Shown here one piece after another: positions 16,003-47,760 of a stretch of 64,000 bases of DNA (positions are counted from its first letter, which is position 1; every line of letters starts with the position of its first letter). The notes under the pieces were generated by a model, which searched no databases, had not been told where the DNA came from, and was given only the letters and a program-made list of their open reading frames with translations. Where the stretch lies: contig JAAYUC010000001.1 of NCBI GenBank assembly GCA_012517865.1, positions 1 through 64,000 of the forward strand. The letters are read 5' to 3'. The DNA comes from Chloroflexota bacterium (GTDB taxonomy: Bacteria > Chloroflexota > Anaerolineae > Anaerolineales > Anaerolineaceae). The translations under genes were made by a program, and so were the position numbers.

Positions 16003-16695
16003 ATGCTCTATCTGGTAGCCACTCCCATCGGCAACCTCGGCGATATGACCTACCGGGCAGTCGAAACCTTGCAAGGGGTCGACCTAATCGCCAGCGAGGA
16101 CACGCGAAAAACCAGCATCCTCCTGAAACATTATGGAATTTCAAAGCCTCAGGTGGCTTTCCATACCATAAACGAAGCCAGGATGACGCCAAAGCTGCTG
16201 GAACGCTTGCTGGAAGGGGAAAACATCGCGCTGGTGACCAACGCCGGCACGCCCGGAATCTCTGACCCGGGCTATTCCCTCACGCATGCTGCCGTTCAGG
16301 CCGGGGTGGCGGTGACGTCCATACCAGGGCCTTCCGCGGTCATCACAGCGCTCACTCTGGCGGATTTGCCTTTGCACAGCTTCACCTTTAAGGGTTTTCC
16401 ACCGCATAAAGAAGGCCCCCGAAAACGCTTTTTGGAACAGGAAAAAGACTCTCCGCACACGTTGGTCTTCTATGAGAGTCCATACCGCCTTATGGCGTTC
16501 CTAAAAAACGCTCTGGAAATATTCGGCGACCGGCGCGCCATGTTGGCCAATGACCTGACCAAGAAGTTTGAGGCCATCTGGCGGGGAAGCCTGCGGGAAA
16601 TACTGGAGCAAATGCAGAACACAGAAATAAAAGGTGAATTCTGCATTTGTATTGAAGGCTGTCCGGAGGAAAGGGTCAGAACGCGAGAGGGGTAA
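16003..16695 (+). CDS. rsmI: 16S rRNA (cytidine1402-2'-O)-methyltransferase RsmI
   Basis: A 230-residue tetrapyrrole-methylase-fold enzyme. Motifs include [16 protein letters not shown] at the N terminus, [18 protein letters not shown] (80-90) and the SAM loop [10 protein letters not shown]. RsmI methylates the 2'-OH of C1402 in the decoding region of 16S rRNA. At 230 residues it lacks most of the C-terminal extension of E. coli RsmI, which has about 286. It overlaps the convergent yhhQ gene by 20 bp at the 3' end. A second RsmI-like gene lies at 22364-23071, so this copy is the better candidate for the housekeeping function. Confidence 0.88.
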
Positions 16696-17407
16696 GGTCC
16701 TTCAAATCAGAGAAAACATCCAGGTTTTCCGCTTTCTTGAGCCTGTTGGTAATCCAATAGGTGGCTGGCGTCATGATGACCTCAACAGCAACCTTGAAAA
16801 GGTAATTGCTGAGCGTGAGCGTCAGGTAAAGCTCCCACGGAAAAACACGCGTCAATGAGCCTACCGCGATGAAAACAGCGGTATCCACCAGTTCCCCGAC
16901 AATTGTGGAGCTTATCGTTCGAACCCAGAGCCATTTCCCCTGTGTGCTGTGTTTGAGCAGCGCCATAATGATGGCATTAGAGAAACTGCCGCCAAGATAC
17001 CCAAGAAAACTTGCCAATACAATTCCGCCAGAACTGACTCCTCCGAGGATTTTATCGTAGGCGGACTGCCCGACAGAATTTAGCCAGGTGGGTTCACCCG
17101 GCAATTTCTGAATAAAGTAAAACATCAGCGCTGTAAATACCAGCCCCAAAAAACCAATCCAGATGACGCGCCGGGAGATTTTGTATCCATAAACTTCAGT
17201 GAGGATATCCCCAAAGATGTAGGCGACTGGAAAAAACAATGTGCCGGCATCAAACGCCAACGGCACGCCGCCCAGGGAAATCCCCCAGTCTATCAATTTG
17301 GCTGATGAGGCGATATTGCTGAGAGCCAAAACCAAAGTGAAGACAACCGTTACGATATCCAGGTAACGATAGGTGAGTGGTGAGGAGGCGGGAGGTTTTT
17401 CGTTCAT
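16676..17407 (-). CDS. yhhQ: Queuosine precursor transporter (YhhQ/QPTR family)
   Basis: A 243-residue membrane protein with about six to seven hydrophobic segments. Family features are the acidic pair in [16 protein letters not shown] and a second conserved block [10 protein letters not shown]. YhhQ imports preQ0 or preQ1 for queuosine synthesis. ATG 17407 is chosen: a longer frame to 17581 would overlap rsmE and add a non-membrane Arg/Ser-rich stretch. The start lies 8 nt after a TATACT box, suggesting a leaderless mRNA. The link to the TGT-like gene 4 kb away suggests salvage of a deazaguanine base. Confidence 0.87.
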
Positions 17408-17414
17408 CAGCGTA

Positions 17415-17441
17415 AAGTATACCTTTTTTACAGGTATACTT
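17415..17441. promoter_or_regulatory. Divergent promoter palindrome between yhhQ and rsmE
   Basis: A perfect 10-bp inverted repeat (AAGTATACCT, 7-nt spacer TTTTTAC, AGGTATACTT) fills most of the 43-bp gap between the two start codons. Each arm contains TATACT pointing outwards, ending 8-10 nt before its ATG. The element can therefore be two face-away -10 boxes giving leaderless or nearly leaderless transcripts. It could also be an operator that represses both genes together. Confidence 0.6.
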
Positions 17442-17450
17442 ATTTCCACA

Positions 17451-18188
17451 ATGCAGCGCTTTTTTGTTGAATCAGACGCGATACAAGGCGGCAAAGTGCG
17501 CTTTCCGGAATCCGCGGCCCGGCAAATGGAGAAGGTCCTGCGGCTGGACCTTGCTCGTGACGAGGTCATCGTCCTCGACAACTCCGGAAAGAGTTACCGC
17601 GTTCGCCTGAACGGCCGGCAGGCTGGACTCCTATCTGGAGAGATTCTGGAGACGAAAGCGCCGGACCCGCGTTTGGAGCTGCGGCTGGAACTTGGCTTCA
17701 GCCTCACCAAGAGGGAAAAGGTGGAATGGATTCTCCAAAAAGGGACTGAACTAGGGGTCAGCGTTTTCAGACCTTTTGTTTCAGAACGAAGCCTTGACCG
17801 GGACCTGAAGTTGGAACATGCCAGACAGGAGCGCTGGAATGCAATTATCCGGGAAGCGGCCGAACAATCCCAGCGTTCACGGCTGCCCGAATTATGCGCG
17901 CCGAGAAATTTCCGGGAGTTGCTTACAGCCTTTCCATCTGAGAGTGTCAGGTTGTTTGCCTGGGAAGGAGCCGCGCCAGAGCTGCAAATGCGGCCCGAAT
18001 GGTTCAGAGGAGCGGCGGCAGTCGGCCTTCTGGTGGGGCCGGAGGGGGGCTTCAGCCTGGAAGAAGCCGGATTGGCTAAGGCGGCGGGGTTCCGACTGTG
18101 TTCGCTTGGACGGCGCGTTTTGCGCATGGAAACTGCCTGCCTGACGGCCTGCGCGCTCAGCGCGCATTACCTCGAAACCGCTCGTTAA
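17451..18188 (+). CDS. rsmE: 16S rRNA (uracil1498-N3)-methyltransferase RsmE
   Basis: A 245-residue SPOUT methyltransferase. It has the N-terminal PUA-like half (RFFVESDAI at the start) and the C-terminal knot with GPEGGFS and LGRRVLRMETA, the SAM-binding signature. RsmE makes m3U1498, also at the 30S decoding region. ATG 17451 is used because the in-frame upstream ATGs fall inside the divergent yhhQ gene. Its stop codon shares bases with that of the convergent RsmF-like gene (TTAA at 18185-18188). Confidence 0.95.
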   Translation: MQRFFVESDAIQGGKVRFPESAARQMEKVLRLDLARDEVIVLDNSGKSYRVRLNGRQAGLLSGEILETKAPDPRLELRLELGFSLTKREKVEWILQKGTELGVSVFRPFVSERSLDRDLKLEHARQERWNAIIREAAEQSQRSRLPELCAPRNFRELLTAFPSESVRLFAWEGAAPELQMRPEWFRGAAAVGLLVGPEGGFSLEEAGLAKAAGFRLCSLGRRVLRMETACLTACALSAHYLETAR

Positions 18189-19654
18189 GTATTGATAATC
18201 GCGCGGGAAGGCAGCAAATTGCGCAGGCGGCCGGGGAGGTTTTTTCCCGCGCCAAGGTTTCTCCCTTCGCTGTCGCGCGCAGCGATAATTGTGCCTTTTT
18301 GGCAGCCTTCGATGTTCAGGCCGCGAATTTCCGCGCCTTGCAGCCATTGAGGGATTAAATCAGCGGGAATGACCCACACATTGCTCTCAAATCGGTCGCC
18401 AAAGCGGCTGACTGATTCCGCGGACAATTCAAAGTGTGAACCGCTCCAGCGGCCAAAGGGAAAACCAAAAGCATAATAAGGCAGGTCCGGGAAGCGTGTC
18501 AGGAATTGACCTGGCAGCAGATACAGCTGCTGCTCTCTGTGGTAGAAACGCAAGTCTCTATTGCTAACTTCCGGGGCGAAATCGAAACCGTATAAGTCTT
18601 GCAGCTCGCGCAGCAGCGCAGCCTGAGCTTTCTCATCCAAAGGCTCAAGGCCGGTTTTACTGAATGGCCGGCAAGGGGGAGCCACAAGCGGCAGCTTGAG
18701 CGGGGCTGTCTTAATCAGTTTCGCGGCAAAGAAACCGTTAGTGCCGGCCACGTGCGGCCACAAGCGCAGGCTTGCGGCAGCCTGTGGGTCGAAGCGCTGC
18801 CCTTCGAAAGCTGTCAGTCCGGGCGCTTTGAGCAAAGATTGGGGGCTTTCGTCCACGCGCGCGGTTCCGGGGTGCGTTTCCAGGAATCTACTCAGAACAG
18901 CTTCGTCTTCTTCGGGGGCGAGCGTGCAGGTCGAGTACACAATTTCCGCCCCGATTTTTGCGGTGCTGACCGCGGATTCCAGCAGCGCCAGCTGGCGCGC
19001 GGCCAACCTTTCCCGCTCTCCTGGGGTTATCGGACGGAATGGGTGACTGGCGGAGACGCGAAGGCCTTCCATGCTGCATGGCGCGTCGAGTAAGACCCGG
19101 TCAAAGGTTTCCGGAAACCAGGCTCCAATCTTTTCGCCAGTGAAGTTGGTAATTGCTGTGTTCGCCGCGCCCCAGGTGAGTAGTACCACCCGCAGCGCCT
19201 GCAGCCTGCCGGTGCTTGAATCATTGGCAAGAATTAAGCCGCTGTCATTGATACTGTCGACCAGCTGCGTGGTCTTGCCGCCGGGTGAAGCTGCCATATC
19301 CAACGTCAGACCGTTGGCGGGAAGCTCTGAGAACAGGGTCACAGGCAGGATTGAAGCCGCGTCCTGCACGTAGTAATACCCAAAGCGGTGCTCGATGGTC
19401 TGTCCGATGGGTGTTTGCGCGGATGAAACCTGCCAGGCAGAGGATGAAAAGCTTATTGGCTCTGATTGCCAGCCGTAGCGTTCGCTCCAGCGGGAAAACG
19501 CTTTTTGTGGGTCAGGGTTCTTCAGCAGATTTACCCTGACAGCCGGATAGGCGGGCTGATTGAGAACATTGAGAAGCTGCGCGTAGTCATCAGGCGTGAG
19601 GTAGGGCCGGTATCGCTCCGCGGCGAAAAGGGAAAGGTGCGCGGAGTCGCTCAT
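18185..19654 (-). CDS. rsmF: RsmF-like 16S rRNA m5C methyltransferase (NOL1/NOP2/Sun family)
   Basis: A 489-residue protein. The SAM motif DMAASPGGKTTQ is at 119-130. The release Cys is C193 in DAPCS and the nucleophile C243 in STCTL, the two-cysteine set of RNA m5C enzymes. There is no NusB domain as in RsmB. Instead a PUA-like C terminus ends with LGAGKNLPGRLRNLLP, as in RsmF, which makes m5C1407 in helix 44. The start overlaps the upstream Rmt-like gene by 4 bp (ATGA). Last gene of the five-gene operon. The exact target base is inferred from the family. Confidence 0.85.
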   Translation of the reverse strand: MSDSAHLSLFAAERYRPYLTPDDYAQLLNVLNQPAYPAVRVNLLKNPDPQKAFSRWSERYGWQSEPISFSSSAWQVSSAQTPIGQTIEHRFGYYYVQDAASILPVTLFSELPANGLTLDMAASPGGKTTQLVDSINDSGLILANDSSTGRLQALRVVLLTWGAANTAITNFTGEKIGAWFPETFDRVLLDAPCSMEGLRVSASHPFRPITPGERERLAARQLALLESAVSTAKIGAEIVYSTCTLAPEEDEAVLSRFLETHPGTARVDESPQSLLKAPGLTAFEGQRFDPQAAASLRLWPHVAGTNGFFAAKLIKTAPLKLPLVAPPCRPFSKTGLEPLDEKAQAALLRELQDLYGFDFAPEVSNRDLRFYHREQQLYLLPGQFLTRFPDLPYYAFGFPFGRWSGSHFELSAESVSRFGDRFESNVWVIPADLIPQWLQGAEIRGLNIEGCQKGTIIAARDSEGRNLGAGKNLPGRLRNLLPSRAIINT

Positions 19655-20475
19655 ATCTGGCTGCGTTCCTTTCGAATGACAAATAACAGCTCATTGACCA
19701 CCTGAATCTTTTCCACGTCCCAACCGCGGCCGGCAGCTGCCTTTGTGATGAGCTGGGTGTGGTAGTCTTCGAGCGAATGATGGCCGCTCAAATCGGAGGC
19801 GGGCAGGCTGGAAACCAAAAGCGGGGCGCGCAATGACGCGAAAAACGGGCCGAGGCAACCGGGTTTTCGTTTTTCAAATCGGTGTGCTTCCTTAAAAAAG
19901 AATATGCAGTCCGCCCCATGCTGAGGGGGTTCCGCGAGGATATCCTGATGGATCGCGCGGGCATTGGGGTATTTTCGTAAGAAAAATTGATTAAGGAATT
20001 CCAGGCGCGGTTTGTGAATGTCGTACGCGAGAAATTGGACTTCCTGAGGCAGACCCAACCATGGAAGCAGCAGCGGGTCCAATGCGCACGCTAGGTCAAG
20101 GATTACTGCAGGGCTGCCGATGATATCCCGCAAAGCCCGGCAAAAAGCATCCAGATGCCCAAGCCTTTCCCGGGTGGAGGCGTGCCTGGCCATCAAATTC
20201 GCAGTCCAGGTTTTCACTTCTGTGTCGGACGGATTGCCCTCAAAGAAGCTCAGCATCCTGGCAGTCTCCGCGGGATAGTCAATATCCTCCAGATAAGGAG
20301 CGACAATGTTGTGTAATTTCTCGCGGAAGGCGGATTTTATCGCCGCTGCGCTGCCGCCTTTGGCAGTAAGTTCAGCCAGAATCTCGCGAAGCATGGCTTC
20401 CGGCAGGTCCATCTGGCGGTATTTTCGTGAAGACCGCGTCTCCGCAATGATTTTTGCTGTGAAACTTTCGTCCAT
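19651..20475 (-). CDS. Divergent ArmA/Rmt (FmrO)-family protein, possibly catalytically altered paralogue
   Basis: A 274-residue protein homologous along its length to the neighbouring Rmt-like protein. Shared blocks are HASTRERLGHLD (98-109), the SAM motif region LDLACALDPLL (126-136) and C-terminal NELLFVI. Key positions differ: the usual Gly-Leu-Asn of LDLACGLNP is Ala-Leu-Asp, the FLLK loop has become FFFKEAHRF, and the PxRSLGGRxKGM signature is replaced by LPASDLSGHHSL. ATG 20475, 4 nt after the preceding stop, is preferred; ATG 20508 would overlap that gene by 29 bp but has no visible ribosome-binding site. It may be an inactive partner subunit or a methylase with a new target. Function unknown. 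Confidence 0.75.
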   Translation of the reverse strand: MDESFTAKIIAETRSSRKYRQMDLPEAMLREILAELTAKGGSAAAIKSAFREKLHNIVAPYLEDIDYPAETARMLSFFEGNPSDTEVKTWTANLMARHASTRERLGHLDAFCRALRDIIGSPAVILDLACALDPLLLPWLGLPQEVQFLAYDIHKPRLEFLNQFFLRKYPNARAIHQDILAEPPQHGADCIFFFKEAHRFEKRKPGCLGPFFASLRAPLLVSSLPASDLSGHHSLEDYHTQLITKAAAGRGWDVEKIQVVNELLFVIRKERSQI

Positions 20476-20479
20476 TGGC

Positions 20480-21292
20480 TCACCGCGAGAGAAGAAAGAC
20501 CAACTCATTTGGGAACTCGAAACCGCGAACCTTAAAAGACGTGTTTTGAGTTAGTTGCGCGAATTGGTGCGCGTAGGTCTGGCGCATTCCTTTCTCACGC
20601 CCGCCCAGGCTCCTGGCTGGATATGAAATCAGAATGTGCTCAGCATTGATTTCCGCCAGGAGGCGCGCACCCAAGGTTTTGTCCAATTGGTCAAGGCAGG
20701 GCAGCGTTTTCAGCAGAAAAGCCACCTGCACCTGCTGGCGCGGAACGCAGGCGCTCAAATCGCAGGGAAGCGCATTTCCCGTAATATTTCGCTGATTAAA
20801 AAACCGATTCAAAAAATCCAGCATCGGCAAAACGACATCACAGGCATAATAAACGAAATCTGGAGAGAGCGGCATCCAGGGCTGCGCCAGCGGGTTTAAC
20901 CCGCAAGCCAAATCCAGAACCGAATGAACTGGCGATATCTCCGCCAGGCAGGTCTTGAAAAAATGACCGATGTAAGGCAATCGTTCGGCTGTGGAGTTGT
21001 GCAGGCGCATCAGCCGCGTGCAATAGTCCTGCCACGCGGGCTCATCATCAGCGGGAATTGTATTCAGAATATCTTCCCATTTCGTGTAGTTAATTTCCGG
21101 AGCAAGGAAGGCTCCTGTCACCTGGTGCAGACGCGTCCGGGCTGTTTTTAGCGCAGTCCGGATATCGCCGCGTTTCTCCAATTCCTCAGATGCCACGCGC
21201 TCGACCAGGCTGGGAATAATTTGGGCGTACTTGGAGTTCCTGCAAATCGCCCGCACCAAAGTTTCAAGGTCTTCAGGGCTGCTGGGAGTCAT
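20480..21292 (-). CDS. 16S rRNA (guanine1405-N7)-methyltransferase family protein (ArmA/Rmt/FmrO type)
   Basis: A 270-residue protein matching the Rmt family motif by motif: ARTRLH at 51-56, LHNSTAERLP at 97-106, SAM motif LDLACGLNPLA at 126-136, FLLKTLPCL, ISYPARSLGGREKGM at 222-236 and NELVFLL. This family methylates N7 of G1405 in helix 44 and gives high-level resistance to 4,6-disubstituted deoxystreptamine aminoglycosides. All recognised motifs are intact, so activity is likely. It starts inside the end of the TGT-like gene (20-bp overlap). There is no antibiotic biosynthesis cluster or mobile element nearby, so a resident role in ribosome modification is as likely as resistance. Confidence 0.87.
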   Translation of the reverse strand: MTPSSPEDLETLVRAICRNSKYAQIIPSLVERVASEELEKRGDIRTALKTARTRLHQVTGAFLAPEINYTKWEDILNTIPADDEPAWQDYCTRLMRLHNSTAERLPYIGHFFKTCLAEISPVHSVLDLACGLNPLAQPWMPLSPDFVYYACDVVLPMLDFLNRFFNQRNITGNALPCDLSACVPRQQVQVAFLLKTLPCLDQLDKTLGARLLAEINAEHILISYPARSLGGREKGMRQTYAHQFAQLTQNTSFKVRGFEFPNELVFLLSR

Positions 21293-22367
21293 TTCGCAAC
21301 TGCTCCATTAAGCGGGTCATAAAACGCAGGTTGTGTTGGGTCGCCAGCCTGAAATAGGCGCTGTCTTGCATGCGGTAGAGATGGCTGAGATAAGCCAGAG
21401 AATAATGGCGGCAGCAGGGGCAATCGCAGCCCGGGGAGACAGCTTGGTGGCTGCGCATGTACTGTTCATCGTTGATGTAACGGAAGCCGAACCAGTCATT
21501 TCCTTTTCCGGGTACCGCCTTTGGAGATTTGAGCGCGTAAAGTCTGCCATGCCTGGCGTCGCGGGTCGGCATAGCGCAGTCAAACAGCTCGTATCCCATC
21601 CGGTAACAAGCCGCGACGCTGACAGGATGCCCAATCCCAAGCGCGTGGATAGGGAACTGAGGGGGGACGACGGAGCGGGTGTATTCCAGAATGTCCGTAA
21701 GCAGATTGGATTGGTCATCAAGCGGCCAGCCGCCAAATCCAAACCCGTCAAAGCCAATTTCCAGCAGCGATTCCGCGCAAATTTTGCGCAATTCAGGGTA
21801 ACCACCGCCTTGGATAACGCCAAAGAGGAGGGGACGGTCTTTAGCGTCCACTTTTCGGGAGGAAAGTTGTTCCTGAAAGGCTGCTTTGGCGCGCTTTGCC
21901 CATTTGATGGTGCGGCTGACTGACAATTGCTGTTCCTGGAATGGAGCGTCGACGTGCGTGCAGTCGTCCAGGCAGATGAGAATATCCGCTCCGTACCCAA
22001 ATTGGAGCTGGATGCTTTTTTCAGGGGTGAGAATGAGCTTGCGGGATGAAGATTCCGGTCGGAAGATGATGCCATTTTCACCCAGACTGCCAAATTTCGC
22101 GTTCTGACGGATAAGGGAATAAGCCTGGAAACCGCCGGAGTCGGTCATGATGATGCCGTCCCAGGCAGACATTCGGTGCAGGCCGCCCAGGCCTTGAACA
22201 ACTGACGAGCCTGGTTTTTGCATCAGATGGAAGGCGTTCATCATCAACGCTTTAACCCCGACTTCGGTTAAATCCGCACTGGTAAGGCTGCGCACAAACC
22301 CATAGGTGGCATCCGGCAGAAAGGCAGGCAGGGATAATGAATGGGCGCGTACGTCAAGTGTCTTCAC
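21273..22367 (-). CDS. Divergent tRNA-guanine transglycosylase-like enzyme
   Basis: A 364-residue TGT-fold protein. Catalytic features are complete: general acid/base D76 in DSGGFQ, base-recognition D134 in LDDC and Q186 in GVIQGG, nucleophile D263 in FDCAMPTR, and the zinc site C314-x-C316-x2-C319 with H345. Two regions depart from standard bacterial TGT: the start block FLPDATYGFVRSLTS, and the base-pocket loop GGWPLDD (212-218) where queuosine-type enzymes have GGLAVGE. It may insert preQ1, preQ0, queuine or another deazaguanine, and its RNA target is open. GTG start, 4-bp GTGA overlap with the upstream RsmI-like gene. Confidence 0.85.
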   Translation of the reverse strand: MKTLDVRAHSLSLPAFLPDATYGFVRSLTSADLTEVGVKALMMNAFHLMQKPGSSVVQGLGGLHRMSAWDGIIMTDSGGFQAYSLIRQNAKFGSLGENGIIFRPESSSRKLILTPEKSIQLQFGYGADILICLDDCTHVDAPFQEQQLSVSRTIKWAKRAKAAFQEQLSSRKVDAKDRPLLFGVIQGGGYPELRKICAESLLEIGFDGFGFGGWPLDDQSNLLTDILEYTRSVVPPQFPIHALGIGHPVSVAACYRMGYELFDCAMPTRDARHGRLYALKSPKAVPGKGNDWFGFRYINDEQYMRSHQAVSPGCDCPCCRHYSLAYLSHLYRMQDSAYFRLATQHNLRFMTRLMEQLRNDSQQP

Positions 22368-23071
22368 GGTCCGCCAAATTGCTTTCTCTGGGGTTTATCA
22401 AGAATCAAAATGAACTCCGCCTTGCGGTTGTTCGTTTGCCTGATGACATCTTCGATAGTTCCGTGATAGAGCTTCTCGGAAGGAAGAGTCAGATCGCAGG
22501 CCAAAAAAACGCGCTGTTTTTTCCCAAAAGCCTGCTGAACTTCCCCCAGGAGTTTGGCAAGCCGGTAAGGCGTGTCCATCAGGATTAGTGGCAGGTCCGC
22601 GCGGCTGAGGCGTGCAAGCGCTGCCTGGCGCTGCTCTGTTTTTGGGGGAAGAAACCCAACGAATTGGAATTGTTCCAGATTGAAAGGACATACCGACACG
22701 GCTGCCATCAGGGATGAAGCTCCAGGCACAGGGACGACCTGAATATTCATTTCCTCAAGCAGCACCAAAAGCTGCCTGCCCGGATCTGAAAAGACCGGCG
22801 TTCCGCAATCTGAGATGAGCGCCAGTGACTGGCCTTGCATCAGCAGGACCAGGATTTCCTGTATCAGGCTGCTTTCGTTGTGTTCATTCAGTTCAATCAG
22901 CGTCTTGCTTAGCCCGAGTTCTTTTAAAAGCCGGGCACCGTTCTTCCTCTCCTCACAGATAACCGCGTCCACAAAATTGAGAATATCAACCGCGCGACGT
23001 GTTATGTCCGCAGGGTTGCCAATCGGAGTGGCGACGATGTAAAGTATGCCAGCGGCAGGTTTTTCAGCCAT
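22364..23071 (-). CDS. RsmI-like SAM-dependent methylase (second copy)
   Basis: A 235-residue protein of the RsmI subfamily of tetrapyrrole-fold methylases: IVATPIGNPADITRRA, CEERKNG, LNEHNES, SDCGTPVFSDPG and VPGASSLMAAVS. It is clearly diverged from the copy at 16003, for example CEERK for SEDTRK. First gene of the five-gene RNA-modification operon, with an AGAGG ribosome-binding site. A TATAAT on the minus strand lies about 45 nt upstream of its ATG. It may share the C1402 target or have moved to a nearby nucleotide. Annotation as true RsmI is uncertain. Confidence 0.82.
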   Translation of the reverse strand: MAEKPAAGILYIVATPIGNPADITRRAVDILNFVDAVICEERKNGARLLKELGLSKTLIELNEHNESSLIQEILVLLMQGQSLALISDCGTPVFSDPGRQLLVLLEEMNIQVVPVPGASSLMAAVSVCPFNLEQFQFVGFLPPKTEQRQAALARLSRADLPLILMDTPYRLAKLLGEVQQAFGKKQRVFLACDLTLPSEKLYHGTIEDVIRQTNNRKAEFILILDKPQRKQFGGP

Positions 23072-25941: not shown

Positions 25942-27294
25942 TCAGCGATTGGAAGGTTCTATGACTTCTCCCATAAGGTCGTGCTGCATGGCGGCTTTCA
26001 CCCGAACGGTAAGCATGTCTCCGGTTTTACCCTGACCCTCAGCGAACATCAAGCCATCGATTTCCGGCGCATCGCGGTAGGTTCTGCCGACCAAAATATT
26101 GTTGTCCTCATCGACGCCTTCTACCAACATGCTGAATTCTCTGTTAATTAAACGCTGGTTCTTTCGCATTGAAATTCCAGCCTGGAGATTCATCAGATCT
26201 TCCCGACGGGCTTCTTTAACGCTCTCGGCGATTGGGTCGCCAAGCGCTTCAGCTGGGGTGCCCTCTTCCGGAGAATAAGTAAAAACGCCCACATGGTCAA
26301 ACTGCATCTCCTGCAGGAAATCCAGCAGCCTCTGAAAACGTTCCTCGGTTTCATTTGGAAAGCCCACGATGAAGGTGGTGCGGATAACCAGGCCTGGAAT
26401 TTTCGCGCGCATTTTCGCGATAGTCTGGCGCACCCAATCCACATCCGACGGCCGGCGCATCGCCCGCAGCACATCAGGGTCGGCGTGCTGCAGCGGGATA
26501 TCCAGATACGGCAAGAGCTGGGAAGATTCGGCCATCAGGTCGATCAGACGGCTGGAGACATACCCCGGAAAGGTGTAAAGCAGCCTGACCCAGGGCACAT
26601 CCGGAACAGCCGGCAGCAGCGTTTCCAACAGCTCCGGAAGTCCGTCTTGAATACCCAGGTCCTGACCGTAGTCGGTCACATCCTGGGCGATGAGGTTTAT
26701 TTCTTGAATGCCCATATTTTGCAAAGCGAGCGCGTCATTCACAATATCTTGTTTTGACCTGCTTACCAGGCTGCCTTTGATACTGGGAATCGCGCAAAAA
26801 GCGCAGGAACGGCGGCAGCCGTCAGCGATTTTTAGATAGCTGCTGCGCCCTTGAATTGCGTAACCAGGCAGGCCCGAAATGAAATGAATTCGTTCATGTT
26901 CAGGGACCGCCGGAACCGTCGGCCTCGCTGTGTTTTCTTTCAGCTGAGAGAGTAAGGGCAGGATATCCGCCAATTCGCGTGTGCCAATCAGCCCATCAAT
27001 TCCCGGAACCTGTGCAAGCAGGGCTTCTTGATAACGCTGCGAAAGGCAGCCCGCGGCAATCAGCTTTTGCCCCGCTTTTTTGCGGCGGGCGAATTCTTTC
27101 AGGACGTGAATGGATTCCGCTCGGGCATCATGAATGAAACCACAGGTGTTCACGATGATGAACTCCGCGCGGGAAGGCGCCAGCGCGGGCCGTGCCCCCT
27201 GCGCAATAAGCAGGCTTTCCAGACTGCTGGAATCCACCAGGTTTTTGGCGCATCCCATAGTTGTGATGTAAAAAGTGCCGGGTAAAATCTTCAT
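25942..27294 (-). CDS. rimO: Ribosomal protein S12 methylthiotransferase RimO
   Basis: A 450-residue methylthiotransferase. The N-terminal domain has its cluster cysteines in MGCAKN (Cys15), NTCGF and GCLSQRY. A radical SAM motif CRRSCAFC and a C-terminal TRAM-like domain follow. The family adds a methylthio group to a conserved Asp of ribosomal protein S12 at the decoding centre. RimO rather than MiaB is favoured by GCAKN and SIKGSLVSR. It overlaps the upstream HTH gene by 4 bp, so the two are co-expressed. Confidence 0.92.
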   Translation of the reverse strand: MKILPGTFYITTMGCAKNLVDSSSLESLLIAQGARPALAPSRAEFIIVNTCGFIHDARAESIHVLKEFARRKKAGQKLIAAGCLSQRYQEALLAQVPGIDGLIGTRELADILPLLSQLKENTARPTVPAVPEHERIHFISGLPGYAIQGRSSYLKIADGCRRSCAFCAIPSIKGSLVSRSKQDIVNDALALQNMGIQEINLIAQDVTDYGQDLGIQDGLPELLETLLPAVPDVPWVRLLYTFPGYVSSRLIDLMAESSQLLPYLDIPLQHADPDVLRAMRRPSDVDWVRQTIAKMRAKIPGLVIRTTFIVGFPNETEERFQRLLDFLQEMQFDHVGVFTYSPEEGTPAEALGDPIAESVKEARREDLMNLQAGISMRKNQRLINREFSMLVEGVDEDNNILVGRTYRDAPEIDGLMFAEGQGKTGDMLTVRVKAAMQHDLMGEVIEPSNR

Positions 27295-47564: not shown

Positions 47565-47583
47565 CCACCCAGCACCGGAAACC

Positions 47584-47760
47584 AGCGCCAGGCCTGGCAA
47601 CTGCCAGGTGACGAGGACGGGGGTTCCTTTCCGCGAGGAAAGGTTAACCAATTTATTGGGAAAATCGAAAGATCGGCGGATGCCCCCCGGGTGAGCGTTC
47701 ATCCGATTTCCTGTGTCTGGAACAACTAAATGACCTTCAACCCAAACGGTTGGGCGGTCT
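47584..47760 (+). ncRNA. glmS ribozyme (glucosamine-6-phosphate-activated)
   Basis: The leader of glmS has the conserved core of the glmS ribozyme. The cleavage site is between A47584 and G47585, followed by GCGCC. Then come TGACGAGGACGGGGG (47609 on) and GGCGGATGCCCCCCGGGTGAG split over 47675-47695; both blocks are near-identical to the Bacillus ribozyme. A P4-like hairpin CAACCC/GGTTGG follows. GlcN6P acts as coenzyme for self-cleavage, which destabilises the mRNA and lowers GlmS when the product is abundant. The 3' limit is approximate. Confidence 0.93.

Follow-up and report, generated by a model that had tools for sequence, protein, structure and literature searches.

A second tRNA-guanine transglycosylase-like protein encoded with 16S rRNA methyltransferases in Chloroflexota: a candidate 30S decoding-site modification cassette

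Why would a tRNA-guanine transglycosylase (TGT)-like protein be encoded in the middle of an operon for 16S rRNA methyltransferase-like proteins? This question is raised by a locus in a 64,000-nucleotide stretch of Chloroflexota DNA (the window, i.e. the whole stretch analysed here) from a genome of 1.9 Mb that is 99.8% complete. A first-pass annotation made from the letters alone had described five tightly packed minus-strand genes, had placed the actions of the RsmI-, Rmt- and RsmF-like proteins at C1402, G1405 and C1407, respectively, and had raised the possibility of a base-exchanged guanine in rRNA. ORF calling and the family models delimit the following features:

22364-23071, minus strand: RsmI2, a diverged RsmI paralogue of 235 aa, first gene of the operon (TIGR00096)
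21273-22367, minus strand: TGT2, a second TGT-like protein of 364 aa with a GTG start (PF01702)
20480-21292, minus strand: Rmt1, an FmrO/Rmt-family 16S rRNA (G1405-N7) methyltransferase-like protein of 270 aa (PF07091)
19651-20475 (longest ORF 19651-20508), minus strand: Rmt2, a diverged FmrO/Rmt paralogue (PF07091)
18185-19654, minus strand: RsmF-like m5C methyltransferase of 489 aa, last gene of the operon (PF01189 and PF17125)
17373-18188, plus strand: RsmE, U1498 methyltransferase, probably starting from an internal ATG near 17451 (PF04452, TIGR00046)
about 16676-17410, minus strand: Vut_1/YhhQ-family queuosine-precursor transporter (PF02592, 151.5 bits)
16003-16695, plus strand: RsmI1, the canonical RsmI, C1402 2'-O-methyltransferase (TIGR00096, 226.5 bits)

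The ORF coordinates bear out the five-gene operon and its junctions. RsmI2 and TGT2 overlap by 4 bp (22364-22367), TGT2 and Rmt1 by 20 bp (21273-21292), and Rmt2 and the RsmF-like gene by 4 bp (19651-19654). The Vut_1/YhhQ-family gene is also a member of the cluster as it is conserved in this family. The 4-nt gap reported between Rmt1 and Rmt2 requires that Rmt2 starts at the internal ATG at 20475, a start backed by homologues; with the longest ORF, the two genes overlap by 29 bp. In operon order, the Pfam and NCBIfam calls are TP_methylase/RsmI, TGT, FmrO, FmrO and Methyltr_RsmB-F. RsmE does lie tail-to-tail with the operon, as had been claimed, its 3' end overlapping that of the RsmF-like gene by 4 bp. 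RsmI1 and the Vut_1/YhhQ-family transporter, which were absent from the earlier account, are further members of the cluster; E. coli YhhQ carries preQ0 (PMC5372724). Elsewhere in the window, a glmS ribozyme/riboswitch is found at 47573-47731 on the plus strand (Rfam RF00234, 42.3 bits). A few genes away from the operon (25942-27294, minus strand) lies the gene for RimO, an enzyme that methylthiolates protein S12 of the ribosome close to the decoding centre.

TGT2 is a distinct monophyletic subfamily separate from canonical TGT. The canonical TGT of the same genome is encoded on another contig, is 33% identical to TGT2 and scores 532 bits on PF01702 versus 301 for TGT2. We analysed a class sample of 396 genomes and a phylum-wide sample of 301 genomes, with nine TGT2-positive genomes common to both. 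In the class sample, the TGT matches fall into two groups relative to the window protein, i.e. TGT2 proteins with 52-67% identity and canonical TGTs with about 33-40%; across Chloroflexota, TGT2 proteins are about 50-67% identical. In the tree, 72/72 TGT2 proteins form one clade (support 0.92) with no canonical TGT inside. On the bacterial Tgt model TIGR00430, TGT2 is a borderline pass (306.9 bits; cut-off 306.75). TGT2 is also present in three complete genomes (L240, L247 and L241). Three matches (L050 in G368, G114:C88 and G035:C3) contain one in-frame stop and could be pseudogenes or have a misjudged end. Two MAGs labelled WWE3 (L094) and Doudnabacteria (L095) encode TGTs about 40% identical to TGT2; the former has GGYAVTE at the site of the GGWP motif, which it lacks, and an RsmI gene about 400 nt away on the opposite strand.

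Does TGT2 have the equipment of an active enzyme? Its AlphaFold model (pLDDT 92.6) superimposes on Z. mobilis TGT with TM scores of 0.86-0.89 at about 30% identity. In an alignment of 42 TGT2 proteins, D102, D156, G229-G230, D280, R289 and H349 are invariant (D102, D280 and H349 in 42/42), a set that includes the aspartates serving as acid/base and as nucleophile, Q203 and R286 are nearly so, and the zinc ligands C318, C320 and C323 are each present in 40-41 of the 42 proteins, with the fourth ligand H349 in all of them. The base pocket has changed. In the canonical enzyme, a peptide switch at L231-A232 together with E235 alternates between guanine and preQ1, and the backbone NH at position 232 reads guanine N7 via a water (PMC3660597). 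TGT2 lacks this switch of bacterial Tgt: the motif GG-LAVGE has become GG-WPLD, with A232 replaced by Pro in 42/42 proteins, L231 by Trp in 40/42 and E235 lost. Pro232 removes the backbone NH that reads N7, and the predicted pocket fits either of two states, i.e. one locked in a carbonyl-in, preQ1-like conformation or one accepting an N7-substituted guanine. The loop L98-I104 of E. coli TGT becomes ordered and stacks on A37 once tRNA is bound (PMC13416341); its TGT2 counterpart is four residues longer and has new conserved residues. With its catalytic residues intact and its pocket and loop rebuilt, TGT2 is, judging from the alignment and the model, probably active as a transglycosylase that has a different base pocket and acts on a different RNA.

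In the genomes sampled, TGT2 comes with Rmt throughout. In the class sample, Rmt/FmrO is present in 108/396 genomes and TGT2 in 70/396; all 70 TGT2 genomes carry Rmt, whereas the other 38 Rmt genomes lack TGT2, so that the dependence is one-way. The co-occurrence (Fisher p = 2e-50, a value that overstates independence because the genomes are phylogenetically related) spans more than a dozen families, and the two genes lie within 200 nt of each other in 53 of the 70 genomes. The phylum sample gives the same picture (TGT2 in 53/301, Rmt in 58/301, and Rmt in 53/53 TGT2 genomes). The adjacency of TGT2 and Rmt1 is kept in both orders (Rmt1-TGT2 and TGT2-Rmt1) and with extra neighbours, among which RsmI is a frequent third member in many families; in family f38, TGT2 can be distant from Rmt. 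The gene order of the window recurs in four other species of its family, besides members of the genus, and the full gene set recurs within this family, with RsmI2 as an additional RsmI. In one genome of another family (L051/L080), the order is YhhQ-RsmI-TGT2-Rmt1-Rmt2-RsmF-RsmE, all on one strand. Among the matches listed, at least one case lies outside Chloroflexota, i.e. a MAG labelled Firmicutes (L093) with TGT2-Rmt1-RsmI. In a control set of 78 further TGT loci, all from other bacteria, no Rmt, RsmI, RsmF or RsmE gene was found within 5 kb, save one RsmI. Conservation of gene order in relatives had been set beforehand as a test, and the linkage proved strong and phylum-wide: because the order recurs in the family and the core pair TGT2-Rmt1 is found throughout the phylum, the linkage is more than chance. 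Linkage and co-occurrence do not prove a common substrate.

The assignment to G1405 is probable for only one of the two Rmt-like proteins. Rmt1 scores 161 bits on PF07091 and 210.8 bits on NF000466, below the NCBIfam equivalog cut-off of 250; its best PDB match is Sgm (E 5e-46), and it retains the SLGGRxKGM motif of the G1405 enzymes. Rmt2 scores 133.7 bits on PF07091 and 134.8 bits on NF000466, far under the same cut-off. In the window copy, SLGGRxKGM is replaced by DLSGHHSLEDYH (motif site DLSGHHSL; THGGRNLTNRY or LSGRRSL in other families). Rmt2 also has FKE in place of LKxLP, and the window copy additionally carries an altered SAM motif (ACALDPL). Because SLGGRxKGM is lost in the alignment, a G1405 target of Rmt2 appears doubtful, and Rmt2 may be a non-catalytic partner or an enzyme with another target. 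In six loci of family f38 (L049, L068, L070, L071, L086 and L087), Rmt2 occurs without an adjacent Rmt1, beside RsmE and often RsmI; Rmt2-RsmE in this family is a second conserved 16S-modification pair.

The assignment of the operon RsmI to C1402 is not supported. RsmI2 is a diverged paralogue that passes the TIGR00096 cut-off narrowly (171.8 bits; cut-off 167.9; RsmI1, 226.5 bits), in which EDTRK has become EE-R/F-x and FYESPYR has become LMDTPYR, changes that are kept within family f1, and this extra RsmI copy is found mainly in the family of the window. C1402 more likely belongs to RsmI1 at 16003-16695. The RsmF-like protein has both expected domains (PF01189 and PF17125), and its best NCBIfam model is RsmF at 226.6 bits, below the cut-off of 588. 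Overall, the interpretation in the first-pass annotation is partly supported.

The source of a base for exchange is suggested by the queuosine pathway. QueA is nearly universal among the genomes, and queuosine-pathway bases should therefore be at hand. In a single family, the QueA gene immediately precedes TGT2 in three genomes (L034, L035 and L206), and this adjacency ties TGT2 to the pathway. In a search for a transporter or queuosine gene specific to TGT2, YhhQ and QueA turned out to be widespread irrespective of TGT2. A diverged QueA (about 250 bits) occurs in G346, G363 and G383 of family f38, all three of which have TGT2, and in G117 of family f41; G363, G383 and G117 also have the canonical QueA, so that the diverged copy is additional there. 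This diverged QueA could act on a second RNA that bears a 7-deazaguanine.

Based on these data, we suggest that the operon serves as a cassette for modification of the 30S decoding site, with TGT2 swapping a guanine, most likely in 16S rRNA, for a 7-deazaguanine. We put the probability of this reading at roughly one half. In this model, TGT2 and Rmt1, often with RsmI, would form the core of the cassette, to which some lineages would add Rmt2, RsmF and RsmE. Rmt1 would be a chromosomal housekeeping enzyme that most likely places an m7G1405-type mark. TGT2 would follow the usual chemistry of TGTs (Asp nucleophile, covalent RNA intermediate and base exchange) on an RNA position other than the tRNA wobble position. 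We infer 16S rRNA as its target as well as the exact nucleotide, the inserted base and the physiological role. Because Rmt and RsmI act within helix 44, the leading guess for the target is a guanine of this helix or its partner strand, i.e. most likely one in or near helix 44 within the 30S particle; the base inserted would be a 7-deazaguanine supplied by the queuosine pathway (preQ1 or preQ0), and the cassette may serve accurate decoding or shield against helix 44-binding drugs.

The proposed base-exchanged guanine is favoured by the distinct subfamily, the rebuilt base pocket and the fixed Rmt partnership, but 16S sequences single out no target. Among 33 genomes (19 with and 14 without TGT2), no 16S position separates the two groups; the decoding region 1394-1408 is invariant in all 33, and UGU at 1391-1393 is present in 19/19 TGT2-positive genomes but also in 12/14 TGT2-negative genomes. 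As a consequence, sequence cannot name the target of TGT2. E. coli TGT requires UGU in a hairpin loop (PMC10103133), and since helix 44 is a helix, this counts against a target within it.

Could TGT2 instead modify tRNA, in another isoacceptor or at another position, the operon being shared for fine-tuning of translation with genes that are co-regulated and RNAs that are different? Every well-known RNA TGT works on tRNA and, to our knowledge, TGT substrates so far are tRNA (G34 and archaeal G15) and, for DpdA, DNA. TGT2 also keeps R286, R289 and the fold, and the QueA adjacency suits a tRNA-style queuosine pathway. However, TGT2 has just one strict partner, Rmt, and 16S G1405 is the only site for which the Rmt family is known. 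A canonical TGT and QueA exist alongside TGT2, and both the loop that recognizes tRNA and the base pocket differ across the whole subfamily. On balance, we consider a tRNA substrate rather unlikely. It is also conceivable that the operon is an aminoglycoside-resistance island, in which the Rmt genes protect and the other genes mend side effects on neighbouring modifications. Rmt/FmrO enzymes elsewhere give high-level resistance and interfere with RsmF or RsmI, in that RmtC prevents RsmF from acting at C1407, as ArmA does with RsmI at C1402 (PMC12406665); by analogy, this interference would make joint control of these modifications plausible. A resistance island is nonetheless highly improbable, given that the core pair is found throughout entire families in varying chromosomal surroundings, the neighbours examined include no resistance or biosynthesis genes, and Rmt2 is without the G1405 motif.

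The pattern in which TGT2 is always accompanied by Rmt and Rmt is sometimes alone would fit an action of TGT2 after Rmt, possibly on m7G itself, which is speculation. TGT2 could remove the 7-methylguanine made by Rmt1 at 1405, either as an eraser that restores guanine or in a second step that installs 7-deazaguanine. Pro232 deprives the pocket of the NH that senses guanine N7 via a water (PMC3660597), which agrees with this, yet Pro232 is equally consistent with a pocket locked for preQ1. Moreover, G1405 in helix 44 would need to be flipped into the TGT pocket. As a charged base, m7G leaves readily, but we know of no biochemical precedent, and we regard removal of the Rmt1 product as quite unlikely. 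Very unlikely, in our estimate, is a two-enzyme relay in which Rmt1 would methylate N7 of a helix-44 guanine and TGT2 would exchange the 7-methylguanine for a 7-deazaguanine; if true, the relay would result in a base-exchanged nucleotide in ribosomal RNA.

Should TGT2 act on 16S rRNA, as in the preferred reading, rRNA would be modified by base exchange in addition to methylation and pseudouridylation, and this at the very place where the genetic code is read and aminoglycosides bind. Such an activity would also put the Rmt genes on Chloroflexota chromosomes in a housekeeping context, which bears on the origin of the resistance methyltransferases. We know of no report of a base swap by a TGT in ribosomal RNA; a search of the open-access literature found no paper linking TGT with Rmt or rRNA.

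TGT2 shares with the bacterial Tgt of Z. mobilis and E. coli the fold, the catalytic aspartates, the zinc site, Q203 and the GG motif. It differs from them in GG-WPLD, the loss of E235, the substitutions A154C, E157D and M260L and the longer tRNA-contact loop, and its gene is linked to those of 16S methyltransferases and coexists with a canonical TGT. DpdA, which inserts 7-deazaguanine into DNA, is like TGT2 a paralogue in the TGT superfamily; it has adopted a different nucleic acid as its substrate, as TGT2 would have done. However, TGT2 scores only 20 bits on DpdA models, and a reading as DpdA or a phage-defence protein was rejected on these scores (20.2 bits versus the NCBIfam cut-off of 200; 20.4 bits in PADLOC); no Dpd genes were seen nearby. 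Rmt1 has the family, SAM motif and SLGGRxKGM motif in common with the Rmt/ArmA/Sgm resistance methyltransferases that make m7G1405, but it is chromosomal, in an operon with a TGT and below the equivalog cut-off, and Rmt2 is without the motif. Finally, the flanking genes belong to the same families as the housekeeping methyltransferases RsmI, RsmF and RsmE (C1402, C1407 and U1498, respectively), whereas here they are operon-linked with TGT2 and Rmt, and RsmI2 is a diverged extra copy.
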